Source: an archaeon
GTDB taxonomy: Archaea > Hydrothermarchaeota > Hydrothermarchaeia > JALTZZ01 > JALUTC01
NCBI GenBank assembly: GCA_027051265.1
Contig: JALTZH010000034.1
Location: 1-23,628 of the forward strand
Direction of reading: 5' to 3'
DNA length: 23,628 bases
In this document: in pieces, positions 6,419 through 18,996 of the stretch
Position numbering within the stretch: the first letter of the stretch is position 1
Layout: every line of letters begins with the position of its first letter
Made by a program: the position numbers and the translations under genes
Notes under the pieces: model-generated
Told to the model about the DNA's origin: nothing
Databases searched by the model: none
The model's input: the letters and a program-made list of their open reading frames with translations, nothing else

Positions 6419-6892
6419 TTAAGTTAAGTTTCGTAAAATTCTACTTTCTACACCTTTACTTACATAAAAGCCTTTTTTCTTTAACTCATCGATTAAAGAT
6501 TTTACATCTTTTATATATCCCTTTTTCTTAGCAAGAAGTAAAACACCTAGAGTTCCTATAACCTTTAACTTAAACCTTTTAGCAATTTTTCTTGAATCTT
6601 TATCATCAAGTATTATCAAATCTGCATTGTTTTCCATAGCAAGCACGATACTTTCAGCTTCACCATCATCTATATATTCTTTCAAAAATTCTGCAAGTCT
6701 TTTATCAGAGATTTCCACAACTCTTATAAAATCGGCTTTTCTTATTTCCTCAAATCCTTCCTTTTCTGGATGATATATTTCATTATAAACAGCTTTTGGA
6801 ATTAGTATTTCACCGAAAAGTTCTTTTAAAATTTTAAGCCTTTTTATCTTTGCAAGAGATATTATACATGTAGAGTCCGAAACTACTTTCAT
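6419..6892 (-). CDS. PIN-domain toxin, DUF3368 family
   Basis: A 157-aa PIN-like nuclease of the DUF3368 group. Acidic residues at the expected positions are Asp6 in VVSDSTCI, Glu38 in AVYNEI, Glu79 near DDGEAESIVLA and Asp96/Asp97 in LIILDDKDSRKIA; the C-terminal part has the DUF3368-type IGTLGVLLLAKKKGYI. Such proteins are RNases that act as toxins and are typically neutralised by UPF0175 proteins. Its start overlaps the antitoxin stop by 4 bp (6889-6892), the usual toxin-second order. The acidic set appears intact, so activity is likely. A T-rich stretch on the minus strand downstream of the stop may terminate the transcript. Confidence 0.9.
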   Translation of the reverse strand: MKVVSDSTCIISLAKIKRLKILKELFGEILIPKAVYNEIYHPEKEGFEEIRKADFIRVVEISDKRLAEFLKEYIDDGEAESIVLAMENNADLIILDDKDSRKIAKRFKLKVIGTLGVLLLAKKKGYIKDVKSLIDELKKKGFYVSKGVESRILRNLT

Positions 6893-7137
6893 AACCTTTC
6901 TATTACTCTTAAATCTTCTTCCAATTCTTCTTCATCGTAGGAAATGGGTATTTTTTCTTTCCGTAAAAGCTCTAAAAATTCCCATTTAGATAAGCCTGAA
7001 ATCCTTCTCGCTTGACCAAATGATACCAAACCCTTTTCATATAATCTTAAAGCAAGTTCTTGCTTTATTCTATTCTCGAGCTCTTCCTTTGGTATCTTTA
7101 TATTCTCAGGAATCTCTATGGTTATCGTTTTTGGCAT
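6889..7137 (-). CDS. UPF0175-family antitoxin
   Basis: An 82-aa protein of the UPF0175 antitoxin family, identified by a short N-terminal strand region (TITIEIPE) followed by LALRLYEKGLVSFGQARRISGLSKWEFLELLRKEKIPISYDEEELEEDL. The middle part is a predicted helix-turn-helix resembling the family's DNA-binding region, and the acidic C-terminal end would wrap the toxin. It is translated first and coupled to the DUF3368 toxin gene. It is divergent from nadX: only 62 bp separate the two start codons, so its own promoter and possible autoregulatory site share DNA with the right 57-bp repeat and the nadX promoter. Confidence 0.9.
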   Translation of the reverse strand: MPKTITIEIPENIKIPKEELENRIKQELALRLYEKGLVSFGQARRISGLSKWEFLELLRKEKIPISYDEEELEEDLRVIERL

Positions 7138-11052: not shown

Positions 11053-11604
11053 ATGATTATAGGTATTTTAGCAATACAAGGAAGTGTAATAGAGCATAAA
11101 AAAATTCTTGATAACATAGGTATAAGAAATATTTATGTTAAAGATTTTGATTCGATAAAAAAAGTTGATGGTATAATAATACCAGGCGGTGAAAGTACAA
11201 CTATAACAAAAATTCTTAGAAAGAAAAAGCTCGACGAATATATAAAGGAAAACGAACTCCCAACTTTTGGTACTTGTGCTGGTGCAATTGTAATGTCTAA
11301 AGAGATAATCGGTATGAATCAATACTGTATGGGATTAATAGATATGAAGATTCAAAGAAATGCATATGGAAGACAAAGAGAAAGCTTTGAAACGGAAATC
11401 GATATAAAAGGTATAGGAAAATTTTGGGGCGTCTTTATAAGAGCTCCAATAATAAGAGAGGTAGGTAAAGGTGTTGAAGTGTTATCAACGCATGAAAACA
11501 ATCCTGTACTTGTAAGGCAGAAATATCATCTAGCAGCAACTTTTCATCCAGAATTAACAGATGATGCAAGAATACATAAACTGTTTATAGAAATGATAAG
11601 GTAA
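11053..11604 (+). CDS. pdxT: Pyridoxal 5'-phosphate synthase glutaminase subunit PdxT
   Basis: A 183-aa class I glutaminase that feeds ammonia to PdxS for vitamin B6 synthesis. The start GILAIQGSVIEHKK, the oxyanion region IIPGGESTTITKIL, catalytic Cys75 in TFGTCAGAIVMSKEI, and the His165/Glu167 pair in TFHPEL form the full triad; NAYGRQRESFE is the family's typical middle motif. PdxS is not in the window. The final codons ATA AGG TAA are duplicated at 12069-12077 because a mobile element inserted exactly after the stop; the protein is intact. A possible box A (about 11021-11030) lies ~26 bp before the ATG, suggesting a leaderless message. Confidence 0.95.
   Translation: MIIGILAIQGSVIEHKKILDNIGIRNIYVKDFDSIKKVDGIIIPGGESTTITKILRKKKLDEYIKENELPTFGTCAGAIVMSKEIIGMNQYCMGLIDMKIQRNAYGRQRESFETEIDIKGIGKFWGVFIRAPIIREVGKGVEVLSTHENNPVLVRQKYHLAATFHPELTDDARIHKLFIEMIR
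11596..11604 (+). repeat. Target-site duplication, left copy
   Basis: ATAAGGTAA immediately before the left inverted repeat; it is the last two codons and stop of pdxT. The identical 9 bp occur at 12069-12077, immediately after the right inverted repeat. Confidence 0.88.
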
Positions 11605-12068
11605 TGCTCTGTTGCAATTTAAACGATATGAAAATTTTCGAGGTTAAATTTTTTCTTTAATAAATAATAGATTTGAATAAGTTCGTAGAGATGCTTAAGA
11701 AAGACAAGGAAACAAGAGCTAAAATAGCTGATATTCTTGCAACTGAAATCGCTTTGAAATCTAGAAAATTAATCGTTAGAGCAGTGCTTAAGGAAGTCGC
11801 TACAAAGGATGACATAAAGGAGCTTAGAAAAGAGATTAGAGAAACAGAAGAGAGATTAAAGAGAGATTTGAAGGAATACGTCGATATTAAAGTTGAAGGT
11901 TTAAGAAAAGAAATGAAAAATTTAGAGATGAAATTTAATGAAAGAATCATAAGCTCGGAGAAGAGGCTCGATATGCTTTCAAGATTTATGCTTGGAACAT
12001 TTATAGGTATAATCTTAACCCCCGTTTCTATAATCTTGACGAAACTTCTTTAAACTTGCAACAGAGCA
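11605..12068. mobile_element. 464-bp IS6-like mobile cassette without transposase
   Basis: The segment starts with TGCTCTGTTGCAA (11605-11617) and ends with its exact reverse complement (12056-12068); with a 1-nt gap the match continues through TTTAAA, about 19-20 bp. A perfect 9-bp direct repeat, ATAAGGTAA, flanks both ends. The terminal sequence resembles the ends of IS6/IS26/IS257-family elements (GG..CTGTTGCAAA), which make 8-bp duplications; one of the nine bases may match by chance. The only gene inside codes for a coiled-coil membrane protein, with no DDE transposase. It behaves like a mobile insertion cassette that would need a transposase in trans. Removing it leaves pdxT and the dehydrogenase gene 21 nt apart. 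Confidence 0.85.
11673..12053 (+). CDS. Coiled-coil protein with C-terminal membrane segment (element passenger)
   Basis: A 126-aa protein from a TTG start, or 120 aa from ATG 11691. The second may be right, as a box A-like TTTAATAAAT (11656-11665) is 26-35 bp before that ATG. Residues ~1-45 are helical and charged; 46-103 form a heptad-like coiled coil (TKDDIKELRKEIRETEERLKRDLKEYVDIKVEGLRKEM...); 104-124 is a hydrophobic membrane helix with a short tail. It resembles the many small DUF1640-like coiled-coil/TM proteins of thermophilic archaea; no function is established. It fills the 464-bp element, and its stop codon lies inside the right terminal repeat, the position a transposase gene would have in a normal IS. 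Confidence 0.75.
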   Translation: MNKFVEMLKKDKETRAKIADILATEIALKSRKLIVRAVLKEVATKDDIKELRKEIRETEERLKRDLKEYVDIKVEGLRKEMKNLEMKFNERIISSEKRLDMLSRFMLGTFIGIILTPVSIILTKLL

Positions 12069-12077
12069 ATAAGGTAA
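12069..12077 (+). repeat. Target-site duplication, right copy
   Basis: Second copy of ATAAGGTAA, directly after the right inverted repeat and 21 nt before the ATG of the dehydrogenase gene. Confidence 0.88.
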
Positions 12078-12098
12078 AGTAAATAAAAATTAAATTTT

Positions 12099-13223
12099 AT
12101 GTATAAAATAGCTGTATTTAAAGGTGATGGTGTAGGTCCGGAAGTGATAAGAGAAGCGATCAAAGTTTTGAATACAATTTCAGAAATTTATGGTATAGAT
12201 TTCGAATTCCTAGATTATCCGTATGGTGCAGAACACTATTTGAAAACGGGTGAAACATTACCTGACTATGTATTAGACGAGTTAAAAGAATGTGATGCCA
12301 TTCTATTCTCCGCTGTTGGAGATCCAAGAGTAAAACCCGGAATTCTAGAACAAGAAATATTATTAAAATTAAGATTCCATTTTGATCTCTATGTAAATTT
12401 AAGACCAATTATAACTTTTGAGGGCGTGAAAACACCAATAAATAAAAGAGTAAGAATATACTATATAAGAGAAAATACCGAAGACTTCTATGTTGCTGCT
12501 GGAGATCATGTAAGTAAAACTAAATATACATCAAAACTTAATATAAAAAGAAACTTATATAATATTAAAATGAATATTGACATAGAATCGGATGAAGAAT
12601 TTGCCTATCAAATTGGAGTCATATCTAAAAAAGGAGCTGAAAGAGTTATAAGATTTGCGTTTGAGTTTGCTAAAGAGAAAGGTCTTAGTAAAGTTACTTC
12701 CGTAGATAAAGCTAATGTTTTATCCTACATCTACAATTTTTGGAGAGATATATTTAAAGATGTAGCATCTAAATTTCCAGAGATATCATATGAATTTGTT
12801 TACGTAGATGCGATGGCAATGTATCTCATAACTAAACCCGAAAGTTTTGAGGTTATAGTCTCACCAAACATGTTTGGAGATATATTAACAGATTTAGGAG
12901 CAGCAATCCAAGGTGGTATTGGATTAGCACCATCAGCCAACATAAACCCAGAGAAAAAATTTGGAATGTTTGAACCCATACATGGTTCAGCGCCGGATAT
13001 TGCTGGTAAAAACATTTCCAATCCAATAGCTATGATTTTAAGCACAGCACTGATGCTAGATTTTCTTGGAGAAAAAGATGCATCAAAAATCGTTGAAAAA
13101 TCCGTATCGGAAATATTAAAAGAAGGTAAATATCTTACACCAGATTTGGGAGGAAATGCTAAAACATATCAAGTCGGAGATGCGATTTGTAAAAAATTAA
13201 AAGAAATATCAAAACAATTTTAA
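12099..13223 (+). CDS. 3-isopropylmalate dehydrogenase-family beta-decarboxylating dehydrogenase
   Basis: A 374-aa member of the isocitrate/isopropylmalate dehydrogenase family. The N-terminal GDGVGPEVI, arginines of KLRFHFDLYVNLRP (Arg92, Arg102) and IRENTEDFY (Arg124, Tyr131), the lysine motif TSVDKANVL, the metal-binding SPNMFGDILTDLGAA and the adenosine-loop region FEPIHGSAPDIAGKNISNPIAMILS are all present. The segment LLKLRFHFDLYVNLRP favours LeuB-like enzymes over isocitrate dehydrogenase, but ENTEDFY differs from common ENTGG/REGTEG patterns, so homoisocitrate or tartrate-type activity is possible. No leuA, leuC or leuD is nearby. It probably formed an operon with pdxT before the mobile element inserted. 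Confidence 0.85.
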   Translation: MYKIAVFKGDGVGPEVIREAIKVLNTISEIYGIDFEFLDYPYGAEHYLKTGETLPDYVLDELKECDAILFSAVGDPRVKPGILEQEILLKLRFHFDLYVNLRPIITFEGVKTPINKRVRIYYIRENTEDFYVAAGDHVSKTKYTSKLNIKRNLYNIKMNIDIESDEEFAYQIGVISKKGAERVIRFAFEFAKEKGLSKVTSVDKANVLSYIYNFWRDIFKDVASKFPEISYEFVYVDAMAMYLITKPESFEVIVSPNMFGDILTDLGAAIQGGIGLAPSANINPEKKFGMFEPIHGSAPDIAGKNISNPIAMILSTALMLDFLGEKDASKIVEKSVSEILKEGKYLTPDLGGNAKTYQVGDAICKKLKEISKQF

Positions 13224-15087: not shown

Positions 15088-18000
15088 TTAATTTATGTTA
15101 TATTTAATCTCCTTTATAACACTGTTAATATTGTTCTTCCAAGCTTCAGCGGTAAGAAATCTGTTGGCACCTGCGAATATATAGACTGTTTGACTGCCCC
15201 TGAATACGGACTTTTTCTTGATAAACACTTTTCCTTTACTTATGTTAGCTCTTTCTTCAGATGTTGTTATCTCTGTAACAATATCACCTATACCTTCGTA
15301 AGCTTCATGTCCGCCAAGAACGATTATGTAGCGCTTTGTCTTATACTCGCTGAAGTTGCTTGCATTTGTTGGATATACCTTTATTCCGTTTTTCTTAAGC
15401 TTCTCAACAAGCTCTTTAGCTAAGCTTAAATCTATGCTGTTTGCAAGAATCACGACTTCTGGCGAGTATTCTCCACCGGCAGAAGGTGTTGGTACTACCT
15501 GTTTTACCTTACCGCCTATCGCAAAAACGCTTGTATGGTTAACTACAGCATAAACGTAGCCTTTACCGGTTGCAGAATCGTAAAATCTTCCTGCTTCGTA
15601 AACGAACAAGCCACCTCTGTTATCAGGTATCGTTTCGTTTTCATACTCTATAGTGCTTATCCAAGCAGAGCCGTTCCAGTAGAAGAGTGCTAAAGTATTT
15701 GGATCAAGGTTTTCTAACTCTTCCTTTGTGAAATGTATTTTCACGAGTATTTTACTTAAATTTCTTACAGGAGTATTGTTTTTGACTTCAATATATTTAA
15801 CACCTTTATCAGCTTTTCCCAAGCTTGTACTCTTGTTTAAATCTTGATACAGAGAGAAGCTTGTTACAATTGTGGATATATTAAGAGTTGTATTCGTTAA
15901 AGCGCTTACATTTATAACGACGTCACTTGTATTTATTATTATACTCGATGTATTTGCTATTATATTTGTTGCGTTCAATTTAAGAAGCTTTACGATAGTA
16001 ATGGTATATAATGGACTTTTACCAATATTTCCTGCAATATCTATACCATAAGCTCTTATGTTATATCTACCTTCCTCTAAGCTTATATTTTTCTTAAAGA
16101 TTCTTCCTAAGCCTTTTAGTGAGATATTTATTTTTTTCTTGCCTGAAATTTCTATCCAAGCCTTACTAAGGTCTTCATTTGCTATTATTTTTATATAAAT
16201 TTTTTTATCTTTTTCTAAGTAACTTCCATTTATTGGTGAAATCATGCTTATAATTGGTGGTAATTTATCCTCCTGAATTCTCAAAGGTAAGTGATCGACA
16301 TTGTTCGTAATAAGACTATAACTATTATCACAAATACCATCGTCATCACTATCATTACATGTTTCGCTAAAACCAGTACCGTTAGGTGCTGCCCAAAAGT
16401 TTCCACCTATATAAGGTCCGCCTATTACATTTGTACCTGCATGTTTTGTGGTGTTCCAGTAATTTGTATAAATATTTCTATAGAAGCGATAGTTGTTAGA
16501 GTTATTGAAGTAATTGTTAAAAATTGAGTTATTAGCTGATGAATAAATGAATATACCGTATTCTCCACTACTTTTGATTATATTTCCGGATATTTCATTG
16601 TTATGTGAATAATAAAGAAGGATTCCTCTCCTATTGTAAGATATCTCATTGCTCTCTATGATACTATAATGTTCACCACTAAATGCAATTCCGTAATAGT
16701 TATTGCTTGAGATGTTATTGTTGCTGATGTTGTTATAACTTCCTCCTCCAGACAAAATAACGATACCATTGATATCGTTGCGAGTAATTATATTGTTTGA
16801 GATTGTGTTATTGCTTGAAGCTCTGATTTGAATGCCATCTCCGGTGTTATATGAAATATTGTTTGAAATTAATAAATTAAGGTTGCTGGACTCTATATAT
16901 ATACCTGCTGTATTTCCACAGTTGTTAACAACATTATTATCTTCAAAAGTGTTTTTATTACTGTATTTAACAATTACACCGAATCGTCTGTTGTTACTTA
17001 TGTGGTTTTTCGTTATTGTATTGCTATCGGAATATAAGAGATAGAGGCCAGCATTGTTCCAATATCCTAATCGATTGTTATAAGAGAGATTATTATCCGT
17101 TATTGTGTTGTTATTAGAATAGTTTATATATAATCCTTTATATTTATTTGTTGTCACTATGTTATTCTTTATTATATTGTTTGATGAATTCTCAAGCTCT
17201 ATACCGTTATAATCGTTAGAACCTACATAATTGCTTATTATGCTGTTGTTATTAGAATTTAAAAGCTTAATTCCATACTCATTAGAAGTTGCTACAACGT
17301 TTTCTACGCCTCCGTTTTGGGTGTTGTTAAAGTATATTCCGTAGTTCCAATCACTTATCCTTAGATTCTTTATGGTTACATTTGTATTGTCACTAATGTA
17401 TATCCCATAGGTATTTGCCGAATCTATGCCGTCTATCACGTAGCCTCTGCCATCAAAAACAACATTGCTCGTACTGATGTTTATACATACGGTTTCTGTA
17501 CTGTTTATTACACTACCTGTAAGCTGATAGTAACCAGATTCGACTATATTCGTGCAGGAAGATATCTCTTTTCCGATACTGAAGTAAGCTACAACACTTG
17601 AATTTACATTTCCTAAGCTGTCATTAGCATAGATTCTTATCGTATGCCTTCCATCGGTTAGATTAACCGTGTCAACATAGTAACCATTGTTAAGGCTTAA
17701 GGTTATATTAGCTATACCATCTATCTCGGCTATTACTGTATTAACTCCACTCGGATCGCTTGCAGAGATGTTTATTTGAACTACGCGTGAAAGAAGTGTC
17801 GTTCTGTTTAGAGGAGAAATTACGACTATAGTTGGCGGTGTTAAGTCGTTAAGAGCGTATAGCTTTCCGCGGTTTGGCCAGCGTGATGAACCAATGTAAA
17901 TTGTACCATCGCTTCCAATTGCTGGAAAATACAATCCTTCATTAGCAGAAAATACCCACCTGAGAGTTCCGTCAGGATAGAAAGAGTAGAGTTTAGTGGA

Positions 18001-18996
18001 AACTGCGATATAAACGTTTCCTAGCGTATCAACGATTGGGGTTCTGTCGGTATATCTAATTGTGTAGTTCCACTTCACCGTACCGTTTGAATAGAATGCA
18101 TAAAGAGTGTCCCCTAGTGGTATGTAAATTGTGCCATCTTCAGCAACCGCTGGAGTACTGTAAACATCATAATTTTGATTTGTATCTGTATAGTTCCACT
18201 TTATACTTCCATTTTCTGGATAGAGTGCATAAAGTGTGGAATAGCCATTGCTATCTGATGCACCCACATAAATAGTACCGTTCTTTCCTATGGTCACGGA
18301 TTGTTTGGGATTTCCTAGGTTAATGCTCCACTTTTGGGTGCCATTCGGGTAAACAGCGTATAGCTTACCTCCACCGTTTGGATTGTTTGCTGTAATGTAT
18401 ATTATACCATCACTTCCAACCGCTGGTGAGGAACGATCTATCCAGTCTGCTGCTTTGAATCGCCACTTTAGCGTTCCGTTAGGATAGAGAGCATAAATGT
18501 AATCGTCATCACTCCCAAAGTATACTGTTCCATCGCTCGCTATAGCGGGTGAGGAGTCAATATCGTCATTAGTTGTGTACTTCCACTTCAAACTACCGTT
18601 GGGAAATAAAGCGTATAGGTTGTTATCTTTGCTTCCAAAATATATTGTTCCATCACTCGCTATTGCTGGAGAACTCTTTATATAAGGATAATATGAATAC
18701 GTTGTATTAATTGTAAAGCTCCATTTTAAAGTACCATTTGGATAGAAAGCATAGAGTTTTTTACCTCCAGCAATATAAATCGTTCCATCTAAAGCTATTG
18801 CTGGGGAACTTTCTACATCACCTGTTGGATAATTCCACTTAATGTCAGGCTTCGCAGTTCCATTGTATTGACTCTGTCCAGTGTGGTTCAAATCATGCTG
18901 GAACATTGGCCAAGGTGAATTAACAAGTTTGGCATTAGCAATCCCTAACAGAATAATTACAAAAACCAAACCAATGATTAAGAATCTAAATCTCAT
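15088..18996 (-). CDS. Large exported surface protein: PQQ-like beta-propeller plus NosD-like beta-helix
   Basis: A 1302-aa secreted or cell-surface protein. Residues 1-22 are a signal peptide (cleavage after ANA). Residues ~27-383 form seven PQQ-like propeller repeats, each with a YPNGTLKW-like strand (85, 131, 171, 216, 259, 302, 340) and SSPAIASDGTIYFGS. Residues ~387-473 are an Ig-like domain. Residues ~480-905 are a right-handed beta-helix with Asn-rich coils ending in a NosD-type GNFW...DSDDDGICD...DHLPL. A second Ig-like domain follows (~912-985), then a PGF-pre-PGF-like region ending NHTSVFAIGG, and a ~130-aa C-terminal domain (VVILANSIDLSLAKELVEKL...IVLGGHEAYEG). Many N-glycosylation sequons. 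No C-terminal anchor. Its ATG overlaps the stop of the membrane-protein gene. Confidence 0.9.
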   Translation of the reverse strand: MRFRFLIIGLVFVIILLGIANAKLVNSPWPMFQHDLNHTGQSQYNGTAKPDIKWNYPTGDVESSPAIALDGTIYIAGGKKLYAFYPNGTLKWSFTINTTYSYYPYIKSSPAIASDGTIYFGSKDNNLYALFPNGSLKWKYTTNDDIDSSPAIASDGTVYFGSDDDYIYALYPNGTLKWRFKAADWIDRSSPAVGSDGIIYITANNPNGGGKLYAVYPNGTQKWSINLGNPKQSVTIGKNGTIYVGASDSNGYSTLYALYPENGSIKWNYTDTNQNYDVYSTPAVAEDGTIYIPLGDTLYAFYSNGTVKWNYTIRYTDRTPIVDTLGNVYIAVSTKLYSFYPDGTLRWVFSANEGLYFPAIGSDGTIYIGSSRWPNRGKLYALNDLTPPTIVVISPLNRTTLLSRVVQINISASDPSGVNTVIAEIDGIANITLSLNNGYYVDTVNLTDGRHTIRIYANDSLGNVNSSVVAYFSIGKEISSCTNIVESGYYQLTGSVINSTETVCINISTSNVVFDGRGYVIDGIDSANTYGIYISDNTNVTIKNLRISDWNYGIYFNNTQNGGVENVVATSNEYGIKLLNSNNNSIISNYVGSNDYNGIELENSSNNIIKNNIVTTNKYKGLYINYSNNNTITDNNLSYNNRLGYWNNAGLYLLYSDSNTITKNHISNNRRFGVIVKYSNKNTFEDNNVVNNCGNTAGIYIESSNLNLLISNNISYNTGDGIQIRASSNNTISNNIITRNDINGIVILSGGGSYNNISNNNISSNNYYGIAFSGEHYSIIESNEISYNRRGILLYYSHNNEISGNIIKSSGEYGIFIYSSANNSIFNNYFNNSNNYRFYRNIYTNYWNTTKHAGTNVIGGPYIGGNFWAAPNGTGFSETCNDSDDDGICDNSYSLITNNVDHLPLRIQEDKLPPIISMISPINGSYLEKDKKIYIKIIANEDLSKAWIEISGKKKINISLKGLGRIFKKNISLEEGRYNIRAYGIDIAGNIGKSPLYTITIVKLLKLNATNIIANTSSIIINTSDVVINVSALTNTTLNISTIVTSFSLYQDLNKSTSLGKADKGVKYIEVKNNTPVRNLSKILVKIHFTKEELENLDPNTLALFYWNGSAWISTIEYENETIPDNRGGLFVYEAGRFYDSATGKGYVYAVVNHTSVFAIGGKVKQVVPTPSAGGEYSPEVVILANSIDLSLAKELVEKLKKNGIKVYPTNASNFSEYKTKRYIIVLGGHEAYEGIGDIVTEITTSEERANISKGKVFIKKKSVFRGSQTVYIFAGANRFLTAEAWKNNINSVIKEIKYNIN

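Follow-up and report, generated by a model that had tools for sequence, protein, structure and literature searches.

A 464-bp element at positions 11605-12068 of the window (the whole 23,628-nucleotide stretch of DNA analysed here) is likely a mobile insertion cassette that an IS5-type transposase moved in trans. It holds one 126-codon coiled-coil gene and no transposase ORF, is bounded by terminal inverted repeats and a target duplication, has dispersed relatives, and has its ends in common with broken IS5-type elements. These features are the ones that define mobile insertion cassettes; only a live partner IS was not found. Cassettes of this kind are already known; what is new is an archaeal one with an unusual, selected passenger. 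The host, an uncultured and probably heat-loving archaeon, is represented by a 1.46-Mb MAG (G000) that is 95% complete, and G002 denotes a relative at the order level that comes from the same sample.

An earlier, sequence-only reading of this DNA had described 13-bp perfect inverted repeats bounded by a perfect 9-bp direct repeat, and both proved exact. The repeats, TGCTCTGTTGCAA, occupy 11605-11617 on the forward strand and 12056-12068 on the reverse strand (reading TTGCAACAGAGCA on the forward strand). An imperfect extension of the left repeat reaches about 11624, and the longer arms, 11602-11626 and 12047-12071, are 84% complementary over 25 nt. The target duplication ATAAGGTAA lies at 11596-11604 and is copied at 12069-12077, with a match of 9/9. 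No further TGCTCTGTTGCAA was found in the window at up to one mismatch, and none of 100 shuffles of the window reached two matches to the end motif. The target site is the 3' end of pdxT (SNO glutamine amidotransferase, 11053-11604, +), which remains intact because its stop codon (11602-11604) falls within the left copy of ATAAGGTAA. Excision of the segment together with one ATAAGGTAA copy would put pdxT 21 nt (12078-12098) from the ATG, at 12099, of the next gene, a putative isocitrate/isopropylmalate-type dehydrogenase named by eye from its sequence (12099-13223, +); the insertion at the pdxT stop and the 21-nt spacing had thus been reckoned correctly.

The element and its surroundings, 3,320 bp in all, recur without a difference in a second assembly of the same sample series (WAOB01000053.1, S141). 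This argues against misassembly, although the second assembly does not represent an independent organism. No empty pdxT-dehydrogenase site was found; pdxT was not detected in G001, a genome of the same genus, and the other pdxT relatives, about 55% identical or less, are too diverged for an empty-site comparison. The arrangement is not conserved in the more distant G002, where the region downstream of pdxT lacks such a gene.

Within the element, the coiled-coil gene (11673-12053, +) is the only supported ORF, an antisense ORF being without support, so the description of a non-autonomous element with a passenger and without a transposase stands. The gene starts with TTG; the ATG of its homologues aligns with an ATA at 11664, and the usual ATG is lost in this copy. 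Its stop codon, which had been placed inside the right repeat, lies within the imperfect extension (12051-12053) and outside the 13-bp perfect part, which follows 2 nt past the stop. The 5' region GATATGAAAATTTTCGAGGTTAAATTTTTT (11618-11672, +) is conserved in passenger-A copies with and without ends and is likely the gene's own promoter. The conserved upstream stretch TTTCGAGGTTAAATTTTTT, also present in passenger copies without ends, is probably that promoter.

The passenger consists of a head, an ATKDD beta-layer, a coiled-coil stalk and a hydrophobic C-terminal helix that would anchor it in the membrane, as the sequence-only description of a coiled-coil, membrane-tailed protein had anticipated. 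It is homologous to PDB 6H9L, which a family-A profile matches with an E-value of 4e-9 over head and stalk. The beta-layer motif reads VATKDD in subfamily A and LATKND in subfamily B, with the hydrophobic C-terminal helix after it; DUF1640 stalks open with a beta-layer of consensus [aliphatic]-A-T-K-[polar]-[DE] (PMC4786415). The passenger resembles DUF1640/CCDC90-like proteins and 6H9L in its head, in a beta-layer where the stalk begins, in the coiled coil and in the C-terminal membrane helix, and differs from DUF1640/CCDC90-like proteins in that some of its copies ride on cassettes and in scoring below the PF07798 cut-off. Against that gathering cut-off of 33.5 bits, B scores 18 bits and a G002 copy (C5) 12.8 bits, while the window copy gives no hit; the passenger was consequently filed as a DUF1640/CCDC90-like relative and not as a member. 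A single-chain AlphaFold model (pLDDT 77, pTM 0.33) shows one long helix, and a fold search with it returned no useful match. The product probably forms membrane-anchored oligomers with a head-neck-stalk-anchor build of DUF1640/CCDC90-like type. In G002, three B proteins (L122, L123 and L127) of 146, 175 and 214 aa have nearly identical heads and anchors, their stalk length varying by internal coiled-coil repeats.

In A and B alike, pairs of copies with finite dS give a dN/dS of about 0.05-0.25, which indicates that the passenger is maintained by purifying selection and is not filler. Many A pairs are near synonymous saturation, so the less diverged B pairs, with dN/dS of 0.09-0.15 at dS of 0.35-0.43, provide the sounder evidence. 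Since a gene under purifying selection sits within IS ends, the cassette can be regarded as a carrier that multiplies not just the element itself but a host-type gene. A detectable homologue of the passenger is present in 7 of the 61 genomes surveyed, G000 counted.

The terminal repeat, which the sequence-only reading had proposed to seek in the host and its relatives, is dispersed through both G000 and G002. In pattern searches of the genomes, on which all end-motif counts rest, the motif with up to one mismatch matched 12 times in G000, against 2 for a reversed-pattern control, and 46 times in G002, against 1, with 13 of the 46 being coding sequence of another IS. Matches to CGCTCTGTTGCAAAG in G002, at first taken as ends, are such coding sequence and were removed. 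Used as a query in G000, the element retrieved copies at 72-74% identity, the similarity stopping at or just inside its borders. Two gene-free mini-elements in G000 carry target duplications, one of 119 bp (C43, L051) with TTAAAAGAG matching 9/9 and one of 149 bp (C48, L052) matching 8/9. In G002, a 514-bp cassette with the paralogous gene B (C65) is flanked by TTTGTTTTT (9/9), and a second gene-B cassette with diverged ends (C119) by TTTAATTTT (9/9, read from the sequence). Counting the window element, five cassettes and mini-elements thus have a recognisable target duplication, always of 9 bp, with four of them exact and one 8/9. A systematic count over 443 kb of retrieved DNA gave 53 inward-facing pairs of ends, each end having up to three mismatches and the two being separated by 50-1500 bp. 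In four of these pairs a 9-bp duplication is present with no more than one mismatch; the chance expectation was 0.2 on average when flanks were shuffled among pairs and 0 for eight scrambled end motifs.

Twenty-one passenger copies were examined, of which 10 have at least one end, three both ends and the rest, about half, none. A single end survives at the expected place in C20, C84 (two copies), C138 (two copies), G002 C5 and G002 C36; one of the ten, the C84 left end TGCTTCTGTTGTAAG, has one inserted base and was recognised by eye only, and in C138 the right end that the A copy retains lies 50 nt beyond its stop. In the best-preserved end-bearing copies, which span two subfamilies and two genomes, the stop codon is 1-7 nt from the right end. 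The random control for ends around passenger copies used contigs picked for having ends and so overstates chance matches. Several neighbouring arrangements were also recorded. In G002 C36 (L123 1886-1895), an asparagine-synthase-like gene has its stop codon supplied by the left end of the cassette. In G000 C153 (L050 827-1822), fragments of an IS607-type resolvase and of TnpB (Cas12f1-like TNB) adjoin a perfect TTGCAACAGAGCA end. Two passenger-A copies without ends (G000 C173, L002 350-490; G000 C75, L004 950-1082) each have, 30-90 bp downstream, a hairpin that is convergent with the gene and resembles the right end of an IS200/IS605-type TnpB element.

Sequence comparisons indicate that the partner transposase was most likely of IS5 type and not IS6, because IS5 remnants share the cassette ends, IS903 duplications are 9 bp against 8 bp for IS6, and the IS6 ends differ. 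G002 contains about a dozen elements with broken transposase genes and TGCTCTGTTGCAAGTTT ends, the first 13-17 bp of these elements being the same as those of the cassette. A read-through composite, joined by hand from the broken copies for searching only, matched NF033579 (IS5 family) with an E-value of 3e-20, below the curated cut-off, and PF01609 (DDE_Tnp_1) with 5e-9, above the cut-off; IS5 elements of the IS903 group generate 9-bp target duplications (PMC12670165). Six both-ended IS5-type remnants in G002 (L119, L120, L121, L124, L126 and L128) have no recognisable target duplication, which may reflect age or recombination among copies, and the 9-bp length accordingly comes from the cassettes and mini-elements and not from the IS. 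The sequence-only reading had instead assigned the ends to the IS6 family (IS26/IS257-like), whose transposase would then recognise them. Their first 14 or so bases resemble IS6-type ends, as that reading had noted for the ends, IS6 transposases are present in G002, and IS6 elements are common in archaea (PMC7986276). However, IS6 elements make 8-bp duplications (PMC7986276), not the 9 bp seen here; G000 has no match to the IS6 transposase (PF13610); and the two IS6 copies of G002, a protein fragment of which matches NF033587 (IS6), are bounded by ATGTCAACTTTTTA-type repeats and lack TGCTCTGTTGCAA ends. These observations largely refute the IS6 assignment, which we now consider very unlikely. 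A full IS6 transposase gene with the same ends was sought and none was found, nor was an intact transposase of any family with TGCTCTGTTGCAA-type ends in 23 genomes of the phylum; IS5_2 has no match in G000. As the MAG is 95% complete, the absence of the partner IS from G000 is not proven, and it bears on the present state only, not on past mobilisation. The only DDE_Tnp_1 gene found in the host (C257, a 470-aa ORF) belongs to an intact IS1634-family element of 1,518 bp (L281 583-2100) and is an unlikely partner, its 14-bp perfect ends being TAACTTCGCCACTT; an IS5 copy in G002 C97 was set aside because its ends differ.

Two further explanations dispense with cassette multiplication. The passenger could be an ordinary, slowly spreading host gene family, and its copy in the window a one-time capture between two solitary IS ends that has not multiplied as a cassette. 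Purifying selection suits host genes, the conserved 5' sequence also occurs in copies without ends, and about half of the 21 copies lack ends where these would be expected. Against this, in both gene subfamilies and both genomes there are copies, ten altogether, with one or two ends retained near a fixed distance; homology among copies does not run past the ends, breaking off there or just inside; and two other cassettes have target duplications of their own. We consider a single capture improbable. The inverted repeats might instead form a pdxT terminator or structured RNA, and the arms do pair in a predicted fold, but they are 438 nt apart with a gene between them, the fold energy is no better than that of shuffles (z -0.52), and neither the exact 9-bp direct repeats nor the dispersed copies would be explained. 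The duplication and the dispersed copies refute this account, to which we give almost no weight; the repeats are not a terminator. Transfer by viruses was likewise rejected, as neither a passenger relative nor TGCTCTGTTGCAAGTTTAAA was found in viral contigs.

Under the cassette explanation, the coiled-coil gene and its own upstream region would have come to lie between the terminal repeats of a 9-bp-duplicating IS5-family IS. A transposase of IS5 type, supplied in trans, would have recognised both repeats, cut out or copied the cassette and inserted it, through a staggered cut of 9 bp, at the 3' end of pdxT, where the passenger would be expressed from its own promoter as an oligomeric, membrane-anchored protein. 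The related cassettes elsewhere in G000 and in G002 suggest that some genes of the passenger type have probably been spread by an IS5-type transposase, and the copies without ends, about half, imply that transposition accounts for only part of the spread. The proposal that such coiled-coil genes spread as non-autonomous IS6-type elements thus holds insofar as some copies moved with these ends, and fails on the IS6 type. Its extension to the orphan coiled-coil genes of thermophilic archaea is supported within this order only, since no repeats with a duplication were found around the more distant passenger homologues in other genomes. More speculatively, the cassettes may be one old lineage, split into A and B, of a transposase-less element to which the coiled-coil gene belongs as an integral and selected component, and this lineage would provide a general route for the multiplication of membrane-anchored coiled-coil families in thermophilic archaea; we regard this as possible and rather doubtful. 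Such a lineage would have kept its layout in A and B, consisting of an end, about 53-68 bp, the gene, its stop, 1-7 nt and an end.

Mobile insertion cassettes have been described as MIC231 of Bacillus cereus, in the citation given by PMC2266710, and as the qnrD cassettes (PMC3913671). The present element is similar to these in having IS ends, a target duplication and a passenger without a transposase, for which mobilisation in trans is expected. It differs in its archaeal host, in IS5-type instead of IS4/IS231 ends, in the lack of an intact partner IS among the genomes searched, and in its passenger, a conserved membrane protein with a coiled coil, subject to purifying selection. With the IS5/IS903 group it shares the 9-bp duplication and the same 17-bp ends found on the DDE_Tnp_1/IS5-type transposase remnants of G002, whereas it contains no transposase, and its assignment to IS5 is at the level of the family, not of the sub-group. 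Archaeal MITEs (reviewed in PMC10969869) are likewise short and non-autonomous with ends in common, and the 119- and 149-bp copies are MITE-like; unlike MITEs, the 464-bp element includes a protein gene under selection.

Small membrane proteins with coiled coils are found in many genomes of archaea and bacteria, frequently with several divergent copies in each. In the present case the DNA itself shows how such genes can spread, as transposon ends around a gene kept by selection, which offers a testable reason for the expansion of orphan coiled-coil families. Annotation should therefore check orphan genes for flanking transposon ends, even where there is no transposase. Two other regions of the window, both on the reverse strand, were noted in passing. 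A UPF0175 / DUF3368-PIN gene pair at 6419-7137 is likely a VapBC-like toxin-antitoxin module, and a secreted-looking protein of 1,302 aa is encoded at 15088-18996, with PQQ-like and NosD-like repeat regions recognised by eye.
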